Assembly: GCA_958295845.1 (NCBI GenBank) | Contig: OY282376.1 | Span: 1,253,022-1,317,021 of the forward strand | Length of the DNA: 64,000 bases | Source: Caldilineaceae bacterium | GTDB lineage: Bacteria; Chloroflexota; Anaerolineae; Caldilineales; Caldilineaceae | Reading direction: 5' to 3' | Shown here: positions 2,746 through 49,920 of the stretch, one piece after another | How the letters are laid out: the number at the start of each line of letters is the position of its first letter | Position numbering within the stretch: position 1 is the first letter of the stretch | Translations under genes and position numbers: made by a program | Notes under the pieces: model-generated | Databases searched by the model: none | Seen by the model: the letters and a program-made list of their open reading frames with translations, nothing else | What the model was told of the DNA's origin: nothing

Positions 2746-5100
2746 CTACCCAACCAAACGCCTAACCTCCAACACATTAGGCAGACGCTCGATCCGGGTC
2801 ATGATGCGGGTCAGTTGCGAGATATTGGAAAGCTCCAAGGTGGCGTTGATCAGCGCCATGTTGTTCTTCATGCCGGTCACAGCCTCTGCCGAGCGCATGT
2901 TGATCTTCTCATCGGCCACAAGCCCGGTCACGTCGCGCAGCAGACCGGCGCGGTCATAGGCTTTGACCTGAATGCTGACCGGGTACATCTCCTCGCTCTT
3001 GGCCCCCCACTGCACCTCGACCAGGCGGGCGTGGTCCGCGCGCCGGATCAGAGAGGCGATATTGGGACAGTTGGTCTTGTGGATGGAAACGCCGCGACCT
3101 TTGGTCACGTAGCCGACGATCGGGTCGCCGGGGACTGGGTTGCAGCAGCGCGCCGGGTGTGCGAGTACGCCGTCCAGTCCCGCCACCTGTACGCCGTCGA
3201 TTGAGACGGTACGGTGGGGCGTCGGCTTGAGAAGCTGCTCCGTTTCTTCTTCTTCGGTCTCCTGGCTGCGTTCGTATTCGATCACCCGCTGGGCAATCGT
3301 CTGGCTCGTTACATCACCGTAGCCAATGGCAGCCAGAAAGTCGTCCAGCTCCTCAAAGCCGCAGATGCGGGCGACAAGCTCGTAAGGCTGGTCAACGCTC
3401 AGCCGCTTCAGGTCCTTTTCCAGAATCTGGCGACCCTGGGCGACGTTTTCTTCTCTGGCCTGTTTGCGGAACCAGGTGCGGATCTTGCCGCGCGCCCGCG
3501 TGGTCGCGACATAACCCATATTGGGGTTGATCCAGTCCCTGCTGGGTCCGCCCCGCTTGGCCGATATCACCTCGACCTGGTCGCCGTTGTGCAGCTGGAA
3601 GTCCAGCGGTACGAGGCGGCCATTCACCTTCGCGCCGCGGCAGCGGTGCCCCAGCTCCGTGTGAACCCGGTAGGCGAAGTCGATCGCCGTTGAGCTGTGC
3701 GGCAGGTCGATCACGTCCCCGCGCGGGGTAAAGACGTAGACCCGGTCCTGGAACACGTCCGTCTTCATCCCGCTGACGAACTCCTGGGCGTCGGTCACGT
3801 CCTGGCGCCACTCCATCAGCTGGCGAATCCAGGCGATCTTGTTGTCCAGATACTGATTGGCCTGCCTGCCCTCCTTATAGCGCCAGTGCGCGGCGATGCC
3901 GTACTCAGCTACCTGGTGCATCTCATTCGTGCGGATCTGCACCTCCATCGGCTTGCCGTTCGAGCCGACCACGGCGGTATGCAGACTGCGGTACATATTG
4001 TCCTTGGGGCTGGCGATGTAGTCGTCAAATTCGCCGGGAATCGGGCGCCAGTGGCTGTGGACAACGCCCAATGTCGCGTAGCAGTCGGCAATCGAATCGA
4101 CGATAATGCGGAAGCCGTGGATATCGTATATCTGGTCGAACGGCACGTCCTTGCGCCGCATCTTTCGATATATGCCGTAGATATGTTTGGGGCGCCCGTT
4201 GATCTCCGCCTTGATGCCGGACTCGTGCAGCGCCTTGGCGAGGGTTTCGCGCGTCTCATCCATCCAGCTGACCCGCTCGGCCCGCTTCTGGTCCATGGCC
4301 CGCGACAGATTTCGATAGGTGACCGGTTCAAGGTAGCGGAAACTGAGGTCCTCGAGCTCCCACTTGATCTGCCAGATCCCGAGCCGGTTTGCCAGCGGGG
4401 CAAAGATCTCCAACGTCTCGCGGGCAATGCGGCGGCGTTTGTGTTCCTGGTGGCCCTCCAGCGTGCGCATGTTGTGGACGCGATCAGCCAGCTTGATCAG
4501 CACCACGCGGATGTCCTCGACCATGGCCAGGAACATCTTGCGCAGGCTTTCGGCCTTCTCATCGGCGACGCTGTGGCGCATGTTGCTCAACTCTTTGATG
4601 CGGTTGAGCTTTGTCACGCCGTCCACCAGCTCGGCAATCTCGTGGTTAAAGTTCTTTTCGAGGTAGTCGATCGTGTAGACCGAGTCCTCGACCACGTCGT
4701 GCAGCAGTGCTGCCGCCAGTGTGTCCGCGTCCAGCAGCAGCTCGGCCAGTATGTTGGTTACGTCGATCGGGTGCAGTATGAAGGGCTCGCCCGTCATGCG
4801 CGTCTGCTCGCGGTGGGCGTCGCTGGCGACCAGATAGGCGCGCAGAATCAGTAACCTCTCATCGGCGCTGAAATAGTCGGGCAGCTTCTTATACAGCTCT
4901 TCGAGCGCTTTAATTTCGTGCAGGTTCAGGAGCGGCTGAAGGAACAACTTGCCGCCGCTCACTGGGGGTATGGCCTCAAGAGGAATGCTTCGTAGAAGCG
5001 GACTGTCCGTAGGAAGTCCGTTTTGCTCTGAGTTTGACAGGTCTGGCTGGTCGCTGGAATCCGCAGCGGTGAGGTCCGGCGCCAGTTCGGTGCCAGCCAT
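2746..5100 (-). CDS. relA: Bifunctional (p)ppGpp synthetase/hydrolase (RelA/SpoT homologue)
   Basis: A 784-residue Rsh enzyme that makes and degrades the alarmone (p)ppGpp in the stringent response. Domain order is standard after a Ser/Pro-rich N-terminal extension of about 55 residues. The HD hydrolase domain has ALLHDVVEDS at 131-140. The synthetase domain spans about 290-420 with YDIHGFRIIVDS, and a TGS domain lies at about 452-515. A helical region and a C-terminal ACT domain occupy about 705-784. The RRKD stretch at 315-318 matches the RXKD charge motif of bifunctional enzymes rather than the EXDD of synthesis-only RelA, and the HD residues are intact. Both activities are therefore expected. 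The gene has its own upstream promoter and is transcribed away from pepF. Confidence 0.95.
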   Translation of the reverse strand: MAGTELAPDLTAADSSDQPDLSNSEQNGLPTDSPLLRSIPLEAIPPVSGGKLFLQPLLNLHEIKALEELYKKLPDYFSADERLLILRAYLVASDAHREQTRMTGEPFILHPIDVTNILAELLLDADTLAAALLHDVVEDSVYTIDYLEKNFNHEIAELVDGVTKLNRIKELSNMRHSVADEKAESLRKMFLAMVEDIRVVLIKLADRVHNMRTLEGHQEHKRRRIARETLEIFAPLANRLGIWQIKWELEDLSFRYLEPVTYRNLSRAMDQKRAERVSWMDETRETLAKALHESGIKAEINGRPKHIYGIYRKMRRKDVPFDQIYDIHGFRIIVDSIADCYATLGVVHSHWRPIPGEFDDYIASPKDNMYRSLHTAVVGSNGKPMEVQIRTNEMHQVAEYGIAAHWRYKEGRQANQYLDNKIAWIRQLMEWRQDVTDAQEFVSGMKTDVFQDRVYVFTPRGDVIDLPHSSTAIDFAYRVHTELGHRCRGAKVNGRLVPLDFQLHNGDQVEVISAKRGGPSRDWINPNMGYVATTRARGKIRTWFRKQAREENVAQGRQILEKDLKRLSVDQPYELVARICGFEELDDFLAAIGYGDVTSQTIAQRVIEYERSQETEEEETEQLLKPTPHRTVSIDGVQVAGLDGVLAHPARCCNPVPGDPIVGYVTKGRGVSIHKTNCPNIASLIRRADHARLVEVQWGAKSEEMYPVSIQVKAYDRAGLLRDVTGLVADEKINMRSAEAVTGMKNNMALINATLELSNISQLTRIMTRIERLPNVLEVRRLVG

Positions 5101-44336: not shown

Positions 44337-44441
44337 TTTCTCTCCGGGTGCATCCCAATCTCGGTGTGAACTCTCGTTTACCCCTTGCTGCCACCAAGCC
44401 GCCTTCAATTCTCACATCCATCCCTGGCTATTCGCCTATTC

Positions 44442-44480
44442 ACTGACCACTGACCACTGATCCCTGATCCCTGACCCCTG
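44442..44480. repeat. Degenerate 7-bp tandem repeat
   Basis: Five units of the type CTGACCA/CTGATCC/CTGACCC follow one another between dtd and the radical SAM gene. No function is evident. Confidence 0.7.
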
Positions 44481-44703
44481 CCGTTCCGCGCCCCCGCAAC
44501 GCCCCGCCCTGGCTAGCCACCGTGTTCATTCTTCCCCAGCAAGGTGTCTAGAGCAAAGTGTCTAGCCAACAGTATATCCCCCAAACGCGCCGATATGCGC
44601 AGGTCCTGTGCCTGCCCTGTACTCCCCAAAATCATCGGATGCCCCGGTAGGGCCAGGCTGTTCCCACACGAAATCAGGGATACATCCCTTCTCAATTGAC
44701 CTC

Positions 44704-44732
44704 TTGACAAACCGAACGTTTGTTCGTATACT
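44704..44732 (+). promoter_or_regulatory. Strong promoter with LexA-type box in the spacer
   Basis: TTGACA (44704-44709), exactly 17 nt, then TATACT (44727-44732). The spacer contains the palindrome CGAACGTTTGTTCG at 44713-44726, which fits the Gram-positive SOS box CGAAC-RNRY-GTTCG at all but one position. Repressor bound there would block RNA polymerase. The expected start of transcription falls at or next to the ATG at 44739, suggesting a leaderless mRNA. Confidence 0.85.
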
Positions 44733-44738
44733 GCATCA

Positions 44739-45944
44739 ATGAACTTCAAAATCGAGCTTGAACCCATGGCAAAGCTCGCCCGCATCGGCGAGATCAACGG
44801 CTATGAAGCGGCCGGGGACGCACCCCATGCCGAGCCCACCCGCCCAGGCTGCTTCACCCCCTCGACGGCCAAGCCCACCCGTCGCGAACGCAATGCCGCC
44901 TCCCTGCGCCGCTCCATCATGAAAGTGGTGACCCCGCGCGGCCCTAAGCCGGTTCTGCGCACGATGATGACCACCGCCTGCGAGCGCAACTGCTTCTACT
45001 GCCCCTTCCGCGCGGGTCGCAGCAGCGCCGAACGCCTAACCCTGCAGCCAGATGAACTGGCCGACGGCTTCATGCGTATGCAGAAGGTCGGCCTTGTCGA
45101 CGGCCTCTTCCTCTCCTCCGGCATCATCGGCGGCGGGGTCAGAGCCCAGGACAAAATTATCGACACTGCCGAGATTCTGCGCAAGAAACAGAACTACCCC
45201 GGCTACATCCACCTTAAGATCATGCCCGGCTCCGAGTATGAACAGGTGCGCAGGTCCATGCAACTGGCCGACCGCGTCTCGATCAATCTCGAGGGCGCCA
45301 CGCCGGGCAGGCTGGCCAGCCTGGCGCCACAAAAGGAGTTCTGGGACGATCTGATGCAACGCCTGCTCTGGACCGAGCAGATTCGCAGCCGCGAACGCGT
45401 GCGCGCCTCTGCAGTCACCCAATTTGTCGTCGGCGCTGTCGGCGATACCGACCTGGAGCTGGTATCGTTGAGCGAGAAACTCTACCGTCAGGCCCGTCTC
45501 GGACGCGTCTACTATTCCAGCTTCTATCCCGTTCCCGACACACCCTTCGACAACCTGCCGCCGGCTTCCCTAAAGCGGCAGCACCGTCTCTACCAGGCCA
45601 GCTTCCTGCTGCGCGATTACAACTGGGACACCGAGGACATCGGCTTCGGCGCCGACCAGAACCTCCGCCTCGATGTCGACCCCAAGCAGGCCTGGGCCGA
45701 CATCCACCTGCGCGCCGCGCCCATCGAGCTAAACCACGCCGACAGACCGACCCTACTGCGCGTGCCCGGCATCGGCCCCAAGAGCGCCGACCGCATCCTG
45801 CGCGCCCGCGGCCAAGGCAGCCTCACCGACCTGCAGCATCTGCGCGCCCTCGGCGTCCCTTCCCCGCAAAAAGCAGCACCCTACGTCCTCCTCAACGGCC
45901 GCCAGCCCGCACACCAGATGTCGCTCTTCCCTGTTCCCGAGTAG
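44739..45944 (+). CDS. Radical SAM protein of the putative DNA modification/repair family
   Basis: 401 residues. The [4Fe-4S]/SAM motif is CERNCFYC (C81, C85, C88), preceded by VLRTMMTTA. A helix-hairpin-helix DNA-binding motif lies near 340-362 (LLRVPGIGPKSADRIL). The protein matches the radical SAM family annotated as a putative DNA modification/repair protein, which usually has a partner containing a uracil-DNA-glycosylase-like domain. No partner is adjacent here. A LexA-type box in its promoter supports a DNA-damage role. ATG 44739 would be leaderless; ATG 44766 (internal Met10) is the alternative. The reaction is unknown. Confidence 0.87.
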   Translation: MNFKIELEPMAKLARIGEINGYEAAGDAPHAEPTRPGCFTPSTAKPTRRERNAASLRRSIMKVVTPRGPKPVLRTMMTTACERNCFYCPFRAGRSSAERLTLQPDELADGFMRMQKVGLVDGLFLSSGIIGGGVRAQDKIIDTAEILRKKQNYPGYIHLKIMPGSEYEQVRRSMQLADRVSINLEGATPGRLASLAPQKEFWDDLMQRLLWTEQIRSRERVRASAVTQFVVGAVGDTDLELVSLSEKLYRQARLGRVYYSSFYPVPDTPFDNLPPASLKRQHRLYQASFLLRDYNWDTEDIGFGADQNLRLDVDPKQAWADIHLRAAPIELNHADRPTLLRVPGIGPKSADRILRARGQGSLTDLQHLRALGVPSPQKAAPYVLLNGRQPAHQMSLFPVPE

Positions 45945-46251: not shown

Positions 46252-49200
46252 TTGAAAAATAAAGTACCATCGCTATCGAAGAATCTCCCGCGTATCCTGG
46301 TTCTGGTTGTTTTACTAGCCTCGCTGACATCTCTTTCCCTATCAATTGCCAGTGTGACGAATGCGCAAATCGAATCGGCGACTTCTGTGCCTTGGCGTGG
46401 AGGTGACCCGGTCGGGTTGGAGGCGCCTTGGCTTGCCGCGGCGGTCGGTCCCGGCTGGAGTACCTCTAAGACGGAGCAAGCCGCGGGGGCTGAGATGTCC
46501 TCTTTCTGGCGGCAGGAAGACGTCAGCGGCGCACGGGGACGCGCTAACTCAAGCCGGATTGGGACAGAGGCATATCGTGCTGTCGAGCTTGGCTACGGGA
46601 AAATTTCGTTCTTTCCGGTCCGCAATTCGGGTGTGGACATCATGGTGAGCCCGTGGTCGGATCCGGCTATGTCAACTGTCTTCTCTGGCCCACTTCCAAC
46701 TCACTCTCACGCTCTGAGAAGTACCGGAAGACTCCCTGCGCCGACGATTTCCGCGACATTTACCGGGGAAAACACAGTCGTGATCAGTTGGACGGCGATC
46801 ACCGGCGCCGACCACTATCGCCTCGAGGTTTGGAACAACAGCGATCCCGGCTGGAAACATATTGAAGAAGAAGAGTATACAGGCAGGTCTTACACCGACG
46901 ATACGGTCACAGCCGGGAAGGCCGACCACTACTACACAGTCGCGGCAGTGGACGCTAACGATGTTATAGGCGATTATGCGGATCAAGTGCGAGTGATCGC
47001 ACCAGACATACTTCCTGCGCCTGAGCTGACCGTGAGCGGGCCCGTAACGACTACTGTCGAGCTGAGTTGGACGGAGGTCACCGGCGCTGACCGATACGAA
47101 CTCTCGGCGTGGTGGGACTTCGAACCCGGTTGGCAGACAGTTGACGAAAACCTGACAGGCACCATTTACAGGCATGGCAGTCTGACGCCCGGCCGCACCT
47201 ACTACTTTGCAGTCCGTGCAATCGACACCAACAACGTTCCAGGTGAGTGGTCGAATCAACCGGAAGTGATTGTTCCCGGTGGGCCAGCGCAGACAGCAAC
47301 CTCAACGCCGACGCCAGCTCCGTTTGCAGTGCCAACTCGTACACCAACATCGACGCTGACAGCTGGGCCTACGCACACGCCGACGCCAACGCTGACAGTC
47401 GTGCCAACTCGTACACCAACATCGACGCTGACAGCTGGGCCTACGCACACGCCGACGCCAACGCTGACAGTCGTGCCAACTCGTACACCAACATCGACGC
47501 TGACAGCTGGGCCTACGCACACGCCGACGCCAACGCTGACAGTCGTGCCAACTCGTACACCAACATCGACGCTGACAGCTGGGCCTACGCACACGCCGAC
47601 GCCAACGCTGACAGTCGTGCCAACTCGTACACCAACATCGACGCTGACAGCTGGGCCTACGCACACGCCGACGCCAACGCTGACAGTCGTGCCAACTCGT
47701 ACACCAACATCAACACTGACAGCAGGGCCTATGCCAACGCACACGCCAACACCAACGCCGACAGTCGGGCCAACTCATACACCAACATCAACACTGACAG
47801 CAGGGCCTACGCCAACGCCAACACTGACTGTTGGGCCAACTCGTACACCAACATCAACACTGACAGCTGGGCCAACGCATACGCTGACGCCAACACCGAC
47901 GGCAGTCCTAACTTATACACCAACGTTGACGCCGACTTTGACCCCTGATGTAAAACTACCTGCATCGACGATCACCGTGAGTGGGACAGAAACGACCACG
48001 ATCGAGATCAGTTGGACGGAAGTCGCAGGTGCTGACAGTTACGCGCTCTGGGAGTTTTGGGACTTCCATCCCGGTTGGCAGCTCGTAAAAGGCGACTTGC
48101 AAAGCACGTCCTACTCCAGACATGGGCTTACGCCCGGCAGGACCTACCATTACGCAGTTCGCGCAGTCGCCGCCAACGGCGTCGTGGGTGCGTGGTCAAA
48201 CTACCCGTTCGCAACCGTGCCGGAAGTGCCAACGCCAACGCCAACGTCTGGACCAACCCCTACGCCAACGTCAACGCCAACCCCTAACGGATTACTGCCC
48301 GCGCCATCGATCACTGTTAGTGGGACAGCGACGACCTCAATTGAGATCACTTGGACGGAAGTCACCGGCGCTGACAGATACGAACTCTGGGAGTGGTGGG
48401 ACTTTGAACTGGATTGGCAGCGCATTGAAGACAGCCTGCCAGGTACGTCCTACACAAGTCAAGGACTTACGCCCGGCAGGACCTACTATTACGCAGTTCG
48501 CGCAGTCGACGCCAATGGTGTAGCCGGAGAGTGGTCAGACTACCCGCACGCGACCGTTCCTATGGACGCGGCATCGAATGGGGAAAGGGAGAAAGCCGCC
48601 CTGATCGCTCTATATGAAGCAACCGGCGGCGCAAACTGGACGAATAATGGTAACTGGCTCTCCGACGAGCCGCTCTCAACCTGGCACGGCGTCACCACCG
48701 ACACGAACGGAAGTGTGACTGACCTTCGCCTCTCAACCAACGGGCTCCGCGGGTCTATCCCGAATTTGAGCGCGCTCACCAATCTTTCCGTGCTAGACCT
48801 CAGTACCAACCAGTTGACCGGCCAAATCCCTAACCTGGATGCCTTTACCAACCTGACGATCCTGTTCCTCGGAACCAACCAACTGAGCGGGTCGATCCCA
48901 AGTCTGGCCACTCTCACCAACCTGACGACTCTGGACCTCTACGAAAATGAGCTGACCGGGACAATACCCGATTTGAGCGCCCTGACCAACTTGACCTGGT
49001 TGATCCTCGCGGACAATCAGTTGGAAGGGCTGATTCCAGATCTGAGCGCCCTCACCGAACTGACAATACTGGGCCTCAGTGAGAACCTGTTGGAAGGGCA
49101 GATTCCAGACCTGAGCGCTCTCACCAAACTGACAACCATCAACTTGGGTGACAATCGGTTGGAAGGCCAGATTCCAGCCCTGGGCGCGCTTTCTGACCTG

Positions 49201-49920
49201 GAAAGCCTGAATCTCGGAAACAATCAGCTGGTGGGCCCGGTCCCCGATTTGAGCGCACTCACCAGCCTGACGTGGCTTTCTCTATCTGGCAATCCGCTTT
49301 GCTTGCCCGCCGGCACAGACCTGTCCACGTTGCATTCCGATGTTTCCGCTCATGTACAAGGCCTTAATCTACCTGAGTGCATAGCTTACTTTGAAAGGGC
49401 CGCTTTAGCCGCGCTTTACGAGACATCTGACGGCGCCAGTTGGGCACAAAACAACAACTGGCTGACCGACGAGCCGCTATCTACCTGGTACGGTGTCACC
49501 ACAGACAGTAATGCACGCGTGACTGAACTGCGCCTTCCCAGCAACGAGTTGACTGGGACGATACCTGATCTCAGTGCCCTCACCGAACTAACCACCCTCG
49601 ACCTCAATACCAACCCGTTGAGCGGGTCGATCCCGGACTTGAGCGCCCTCACCAACCTGACAGGCTTGGATCTCAGTTTCGGCCTGTTTGACGGGACGAT
49701 TCCGGATCTGAGCGCACTCACAAACCTGACGAGCCTGAACCTGAGTTCAAACGACCTGACCGGGTCGATCCCCGACCTGGGCGCCCTGACCGAACTGGCC
49801 AGTATTGATCTCTCTGAAAATGATTTGTGCCTCCCGACCAGCACTGATCTCTCCCAGTTGATCACAGTTGTTGCCGATCATCTGCGCAGTCTCAATCTGT
49901 CTGCCTGCACAGACCCCTAG
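46252..49920 (+). CDS. Secreted FN3/LRR protein with Thr/Pro repeat stalk, no peptidase domain
   Basis: 1222 residues from a TTG start; MKNK matches the start of the 14-kb paralogue. The signal peptide (about 1-41) ends near VTNAQ. A segment of about 100 residues (42-145) is unique to this copy. FN3-type domains lie near 149-232, 240-332, 566-655 and 682-770. Between the second and third is a 220-residue Thr/Pro linker made largely of a 24-residue repeat (VPTRTPTSTLTAGPTHTPTP type). Two cap-plus-LRR blocks (from about 779 and 1046) end the protein with the Cys C-cap LNLSAC. Unlike its three relatives it stops there, without the C-terminal peptidase-like domain. Probably exported and extended on the cell surface; ligand unknown. 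Confidence 0.85.
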   Translation: MKNKVPSLSKNLPRILVLVVLLASLTSLSLSIASVTNAQIESATSVPWRGGDPVGLEAPWLAAAVGPGWSTSKTEQAAGAEMSSFWRQEDVSGARGRANSSRIGTEAYRAVELGYGKISFFPVRNSGVDIMVSPWSDPAMSTVFSGPLPTHSHALRSTGRLPAPTISATFTGENTVVISWTAITGADHYRLEVWNNSDPGWKHIEEEEYTGRSYTDDTVTAGKADHYYTVAAVDANDVIGDYADQVRVIAPDILPAPELTVSGPVTTTVELSWTEVTGADRYELSAWWDFEPGWQTVDENLTGTIYRHGSLTPGRTYYFAVRAIDTNNVPGEWSNQPEVIVPGGPAQTATSTPTPAPFAVPTRTPTSTLTAGPTHTPTPTLTVVPTRTPTSTLTAGPTHTPTPTLTVVPTRTPTSTLTAGPTHTPTPTLTVVPTRTPTSTLTAGPTHTPTPTLTVVPTRTPTSTLTAGPTHTPTPTLTVVPTRTPTSTLTAGPMPTHTPTPTPTVGPTHTPTSTLTAGPTPTPTLTVGPTRTPTSTLTAGPTHTLTPTPTAVLTYTPTLTPTLTPDVKLPASTITVSGTETTTIEISWTEVAGADSYALWEFWDFHPGWQLVKGDLQSTSYSRHGLTPGRTYHYAVRAVAANGVVGAWSNYPFATVPEVPTPTPTSGPTPTPTSTPTPNGLLPAPSITVSGTATTSIEITWTEVTGADRYELWEWWDFELDWQRIEDSLPGTSYTSQGLTPGRTYYYAVRAVDANGVAGEWSDYPHATVPMDAASNGEREKAALIALYEATGGANWTNNGNWLSDEPLSTWHGVTTDTNGSVTDLRLSTNGLRGSIPNLSALTNLSVLDLSTNQLTGQIPNLDAFTNLTILFLGTNQLSGSIPSLATLTNLTTLDLYENELTGTIPDLSALTNLTWLILADNQLEGLIPDLSALTELTILGLSENLLEGQIPDLSALTKLTTINLGDNRLEGQIPALGALSDLESLNLGNNQLVGPVPDLSALTSLTWLSLSGNPLCLPAGTDLSTLHSDVSAHVQGLNLPECIAYFERAALAALYETSDGASWAQNNNWLTDEPLSTWYGVTTDSNARVTELRLPSNELTGTIPDLSALTELTTLDLNTNPLSGSIPDLSALTNLTGLDLSFGLFDGTIPDLSALTNLTSLNLSSNDLTGSIPDLGALTELASIDLSENDLCLPTSTDLSQLITVVADHLRSLNLSACTDP
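47329..47760 (+). repeat. 72-bp minisatellite coding the Thr/Pro stalk
   Basis: Units start at 47329, 47401, 47473, 47545 and 47617, essentially identical, with a diverging sixth at 47689 and looser copies to about 47940. The unit is 24 codons, so copy-number change keeps the frame. The repeat is also open in other frames on both strands. Confidence 0.92.

Follow-up and report, generated by a model that had tools for sequence, protein, structure and literature searches.

Which regulator controls a gene whose −35 and −10 elements enclose an SOS palindrome and whose start codon lies where transcription should begin, and what does its product do? The gene in question encodes a radical S-adenosylmethionine (SAM) protein and lies in a stretch of 64,000 nucleotides (nt) from contig OY282376.1 of a Caldilineaceae bacterium (Chloroflexota, class Anaerolineae); this whole stretch is called the window. 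We found that the locus is, judged from its sequence, a strongly conserved SOS promoter, and we consider it probable that the gene encodes a LexA-repressed, clamp-recruited, stand-alone radical SAM DNA-repair enzyme. The promoter comprises the following elements.

44704..44709, + strand: −35 element TTGACA, read from the sequence
44713..44726, + strand: predicted LexA operator CGAACGTTTGTTCG, which occupies the −35/−10 spacer, with its core GAACGTTTGTTC at 44714-44725
44727..44732, + strand: −10 element TATACT, read from the sequence
44739..44739, + strand: predicted transcription start, the A of the ATG (leaderless geometry)

The 17-nt spacer at 44710-44726 reads AACCGAACGTTTGTTCG, and the palindrome within it, GAACN4GTTC, is the core of the Gram-positive LexA operator. 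Six nucleotides (GCATCA) separate TATACT from the ATG at 44739, and a start site placed 7 nt past the −10 element coincides with the A of this ATG. Operator, core promoter, and start codon fit within 38 bp that are held to the nucleotide across a bacterial class. The extended form CGAACN4GTTCG occurs once in the window in perfect form, at this promoter, where the box scores 18.7 with a matrix derived from the orthologues. The next best window site (8866, score 14.8) is intragenic, and we took it as a chance match because of its position within a gene.

Of the 46 genomes of the family Caldilineaceae, 37 hold an orthologue, and the upstream regions share TTGACA, the box, TATAMT, six bases, and the ATG, also in cases where the more distal DNA differs. 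For a wider set of 80 named Anaerolineae loci, 79 of them scorable, we scored the 60 bp before the start codon. Perfect GAACN4GTTC was present at 46 of the 79 (0 for the mirror pattern and a mean of 0 for dinucleotide shuffles), and a box with at most one mismatch at 70 (mirror pattern 4, shuffle mean 1.8); the conservation of the box is above chance and is real, not random. A TTG element lies upstream of the box in 69 of these orthologues, the −10 element is TATAAT or TATACT in 41, and the promoter is kept at protein identities down to about 55%. Thus the near-perfect TTGACA-17-TATACT promoter with an SOS palindrome filling its spacer, which a sequence-only reading of the window had described, is exact in its coordinates and conserved in orthologues of the class.

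The genome encodes LexA (TIGR00498, 174 bits against a cut-off of 111), and the box recurs at classical LexA targets. The recA-1 promoter reads TTGACA-GAAACT-GAACGTATGTTC-TATAAT, with the box inside it (matrix score 18.6), and the sequence upstream of imuB-dnaE2 reads TTGACA-ATATA-GAACAAACGTTC-TATATT (20.3). The recA gene and the error-prone polymerase were named by profile match, while the identification of the Y-family-like protein directly preceding dnaE2 as ImuB is our own reading. At lexA itself, the spacer between the −35 and −10 elements holds GCACAGATGTTC (15.5). In 30 relatives, the lexA promoter has conserved boxes with one mismatch: GAACATTCGTGC ahead of the −35 element, GCACAGATGTTC in the spacer, and, in many of them, an additional AAACAAACGTTC downstream of the −10 element; such conserved, degenerate boxes appear to give the picture expected of autoregulation. 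The second recA copy has no such LexA box. The sequence-only reading had expected a lexA gene and the same box at lexA and recA; the gene is present, and the box is perfect at recA-1 and imuB-dnaE2 and degenerate at lexA. These loci resemble the Gram-positive LexA regulon in operator core and, at recA-1 and the radical SAM gene, in the overlap of operator and core promoter; they differ in occurring in a Chloroflexota class, and we found no published Chloroflexota LexA motif in the literature searched.

Some observations weigh against LexA as the regulator. Bare GAACN4GTTC is not enriched genome-wide (61 sites versus 67 for the mirrored control), so the box alone is weak evidence, and the case for it rests on promoter position and phylogenetic conservation. 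The boxes at lexA are degenerate and not identical to the radical SAM box. Moreover, six metagenome-assembled genomes that carry the gene (G007, G010, G013, G015, G033, and G035) gave no lexA match, for which missing assembly is a likelier explanation than real loss because the boxes of the assemblies inspected are mostly intact. The last two observations would suit a non-LexA repressor that binds GAACN4GTTC as its operator. We regard such a repressor as very improbable, given that the identical box type is found at recA-1, within the promoter, and in front of imuB-dnaE2, that one-mismatch copies are conserved in lexA promoters, that the core is that of the Gram-positive LexA operator, and that other phyla place LexA boxes of their own at genes of the same family (TIGR03916, below).

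Other features of these regulatory regions were also seen. The lexA promoters (L008 1215-1265, upstream of lexA at about 1,073,200 of G000:C1; L067-L096) hold two or three degenerate boxes at spacings of about 30 and 35 bp. In each box the same half-site is consistently off, and the boxes are shared among genera, as though selection had favored weak sites for autoregulation. Upstream of imuB-dnaE2 (L028, about 3150-3180), the palindrome is extended (CAATATAGAACGTTTGTTCTATATTG), its −35 and −10 sides being mirrored around the LexA box. The promoter region of the other recA (L032, 718-1815, − strand) contains a palindrome-like sequence of another kind, TGTACATACAGTACA. LexA may have one more target at GAACAAAAGTTC (L029 3190-3201; G000:C1:747189; score 17.2), downstream of a TATAAT and separated by 5 nt from the ATG of a 76-codon open reading frame (ORF). 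Sites at 808 kb and 1060 kb were dismissed as lacking −35/−10 context or lying inside a reverse-transcriptase-like ORF.

If LexA controls the promoter, where does the message begin? Among the 70 orthologues that carry a box, 60 keep exactly 6 nt between the −10 element and the ATG; a Shine-Dalgarno-like sequence precedes just 8 of the 79, and at least 90% of the aligned proteins share M1. The radical SAM messenger RNA is thus very probably leaderless, starting at its AUG; the expectation that transcription start and ATG coincide is borne out by this geometry. We also considered that the message has a leader, with its start further upstream, or that translation begins at M10. Two divergent family orthologues (L065 and L066) do have leaders containing a Shine-Dalgarno-like sequence, and they retain the box, as expected if the main constraint lies on the operator and not on the absence of a leader. 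Set against the fixed gap, the scarcity of Shine-Dalgarno-like sequences, and the shared M1, a leader or an internal start seems improbable for the gene studied here. Leaderlessness is not new by itself because leaderless SOS genes are known: the start codon of Mycobacterium tuberculosis lexA is its transcription start (PMC2897130), as predicted for the radical SAM gene. That case concerns another gene, whereas the leaderless geometry here is conserved over a class. If the prediction is right, the message could be translated straight after damage without a Shine-Dalgarno step.

What, then, is the product? The coding features, including those taken up further below, are as follows.

44739..45944, + strand: radical SAM-helix-hairpin-helix (HHH) protein, 401 amino acids, a divergent member of TIGR03916 / COG4277
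44979..45002, + strand: CxxxCxxC cluster motif (C81, C85, C88), the sole invariant cysteines in the alignments
45720..45845, + strand: HHH DNA-binding domain, ComEA-like (residues 328-369; PF12836; ComEA structures 2duy and 8dss)
45915..45929, + strand: QMSLF (residues 393-397), candidate sliding-clamp-binding motif, with Q393 invariant

The protein matches TIGR03916 (rSAM_link_UDG) with 238.3 bits (E 1.6e-70), under the curated cut-off of 343.5. This profile is matched by all 59 aligned orthologues, and its cut-off is passed in 13 of 249 genomes of the class; PF04055 (Radical_SAM) and PF12836 (HHH_3) exceed their Pfam gathering cut-offs. These profile matches place the protein in the TIGR03916/COG4277 radical SAM-HHH family, in a divergent branch below the curated cut-off. 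The equation of COG4277 with TIGR03916 is our own reading, from their shared description and operon partner. Because C81, C85, and C88 alone are invariant, we expect one 4Fe-4S cluster and no auxiliary one. An AlphaFold model (mean predicted local distance difference test [pLDDT] 84, predicted template-modelling score 0.83) aligns over residues 7-294 with lipoyl synthase (Z 17.9), HydE, BioB, and MqnE, and the fold search returned general radical SAM relatives, viperin included. We take these matches to reflect the radical SAM core and to be no guide to substrate. A search by sequence for solved close relatives matched the HHH part alone, and a PHROGs search of the protein gave no match.

A radical SAM protein under LexA has been described (PMC7739468), and SOS-regulated proteins like the spore photoproduct lyase SplB (COG1533) provide radical SAM repair proteins under LexA in several phyla (PMC8565304). 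The protein here differs from SplB in its HHH domain and clamp-type tail, in having no invariant cysteine outside the cluster motif, and in that SplB models matched neither the protein nor the 59 aligned orthologues. SplB was also not among the fold-search matches shown, which we do not take as exclusion. Could the SOS control be real and the enzyme nevertheless have a substrate other than DNA (RNA, a protein, or a small molecule), with cofactor or sulfur chemistry as one example? The nearest solved folds (lipoyl synthase, HydE, BioB, and MqnE) point that way, as do weak LipS2 profile matches in 57 of 59 members. We consider such a substrate unlikely, since the limitation of invariant cysteines to C81/C85/C88 argues against an auxiliary cluster as in BioB or LipA, a ComEA-like HHH domain lies on the C-terminal side, the tail is of the clamp type, and canonical members adjoin UdgX/TIGR03915 repair proteins. 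The view of the gene as a repair-type radical SAM gene was upheld in the comparative tests.

In other phyla, the annotated plasmid-borne copies of the family that we inspected lie directly before a UdgX or TIGR03915 gene, and the Acinetobacter copy precedes a "DNA metabolism protein"; for Neokomagataea the sequence covered stops right behind the gene, and two further records are unannotated. These copies have LexA-type boxes of their own phyla: GAACN7GAAC upstream of those in Paracoccus, Azospirillum, Agrobacterium, Rhizobium, Sulfitobacter, and Neokomagataea, and CTGTATAAACATACAG upstream of the Caballeronia copy; with the patterns used, no LexA-type box was seen in Pusillibacter, Lachnospira, Fusobacterium, Acinetobacter, or Gemmatirosa. 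These boxes agree with the published SOS regulation of an operon of uracil-DNA glycosylase (UDG) and COG4277 in Bacteroidetes, Verrucomicrobia, and Alphaproteobacteria (PMC8565304). The sequence-only reading had presented the promoter as linking a radical SAM family directly to DNA damage. The SOS link itself is supported; as a first link the claim is too strong, because that of the TIGR03916/COG4277 family had already been published (PMC8565304). From phylum to phylum the LexA motif that controls the family changes, with at least three distinct types, so that its regulation by damage appears to have been maintained repeatedly.

The Anaerolineae branch shares with the rest of TIGR03916/COG4277 the radical SAM core, the HHH domain, and a QLSLF-type tail. 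It differs in the lower score of the protein studied here (238 bits against the curated 343.5), in a promoter that is predicted to be leaderless and has a Gram-positive-type box, and in its lack of a partner. At E ≤ 0.001, 188 of the 249 class genomes hold a TIGR03916-type gene, although some matches are weak and may represent other radical SAM proteins; the TIGR03915 partner was found in 0 of 249, with positive controls detected. Nor was a conserved repair-gene neighbour found: neighbours, such as dtd, are those of subclades only. We conclude from these profile and neighbourhood searches that the radical SAM gene in this class is stand-alone. An unlinked, SOS-controlled UDG was considered as a substitute partner and rejected because boxes were not found at the UDG loci inspected. 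The one UDG of the genome sits about 3.8 Mb away from the radical SAM gene, and the upstream DNA inspected contains no GAACN4GTTC; perfect boxes were likewise not found at those of the relatives' UDG loci that were scored, a set from which three loci, L217 among them, are missing.

How might a protein with no such partner reach its site of action? Its C-terminal end is HQMSLFPVPE, and Q[LM].[LI][FLW] occurs within the last 16 residues in 60 of 79 orthologues. The bacterial sliding-clamp consensus is QL[SD]LF, which both this Q[LM]xLF tail and the QMGLF carried by ImuB of the same genome match. Among the inspected copies from four other phyla, the tail is QLSLF in Azospirillum, Pusillibacter, and Lachnospira and QLSLL in Agrobacterium, Rhizobium, and Caballeronia; QLALL, QLTLF, QLEMF, QLKLF (Fusobacterium), and QLSLW (Gemmatirosa) also occur, and the sole exception is Acinetobacter (QLSLGF). 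We propose DnaN, the sliding clamp, as the most likely docking partner of the tail. Alternatively, the conserved motif could be a structural tail: it is short, and in one genus the tails are QMALA/QMALG and lack the aromatic residue, a further point against the proposal, since clamp binding may have been lost there. A purely structural role seems to us rather unlikely, with more in its favor than the alternatives above, as the motif matches the known consensus, stands at the extreme C-terminus, and recurs in other phyla at varying distances from the HHH domain, and pLDDT drops across the last ten residues, to 42 at the final one. From the conserved tail, the enzyme is predicted to touch the replication clamp directly. 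In the literature searched, which lacked most subscription journals, no clamp motif was mentioned for radical SAM repair proteins.

All of this evidence is comparative: sequence shows the promoter architecture and its conservation over the class, the box in common with recA and imuB-dnaE2, the domains, the tail motif, and the missing TIGR03915 partner. We infer LexA occupancy from the box, its position, and its conservation, and, likewise from sequence, a leaderless message, clamp binding, and an enzyme activity, and propose the following course of events. LexA dimers on GAACGTTTGTTC in the spacer would cover the −35 and −10 elements together and so silence a near-consensus sigma-70 promoter. 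Upon DNA damage, RecA-promoted self-cleavage of LexA would open the promoter, and the induced message would begin at its AUG. The product would be a stand-alone TIGR03916/COG4277 member with a partial TIM barrel and one 4Fe-4S cluster. Its HHH domain would grip DNA, and its C-terminal Q[LM]xLF would dock on DnaN, bringing radical chemistry to damaged DNA at sites of replication or repair synthesis, where it may act next to the ImuB-DnaE2 mutasome, which the same LexA would control. The enzyme most likely repairs or chemically remodels a base lesion. Only tentatively do we extend this to a class-wide SOS effector that is clamp-tethered, made from a leaderless message, and free of a glycosylase partner, and that acts directly on a replication-blocking base lesion to reverse or remodel it.

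The absence of the partner from the class and the sliding-clamp-type tail look new, and both had been missed by the sequence-only reading. Although the SOS link of the family was already known, we found no description of a partner-less, clamp-tagged, leaderless form; the regulation is moderately surprising, the lack of a partner together with the clamp tag more so. Few radical SAM enzymes have a plausible role in DNA repair, and a version that works without a UDG-like partner would allow the family's own chemistry to be studied in a single protein.

Two further features flank the locus. A short imperfect tandem repeat, actgaccactgatccctgatccctgacccctgcc, lies at 44440-44490 between dtd and the radical SAM promoter. 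Next to the radical SAM gene, at 46252-49920 (+ strand), an ORF of 1222 amino acids with fn3 domains, leucine-rich repeats, and a long Pro/Thr repeat (THTPTPTLTVVPTRTPTSTLTAGP) resembles a surface protein.
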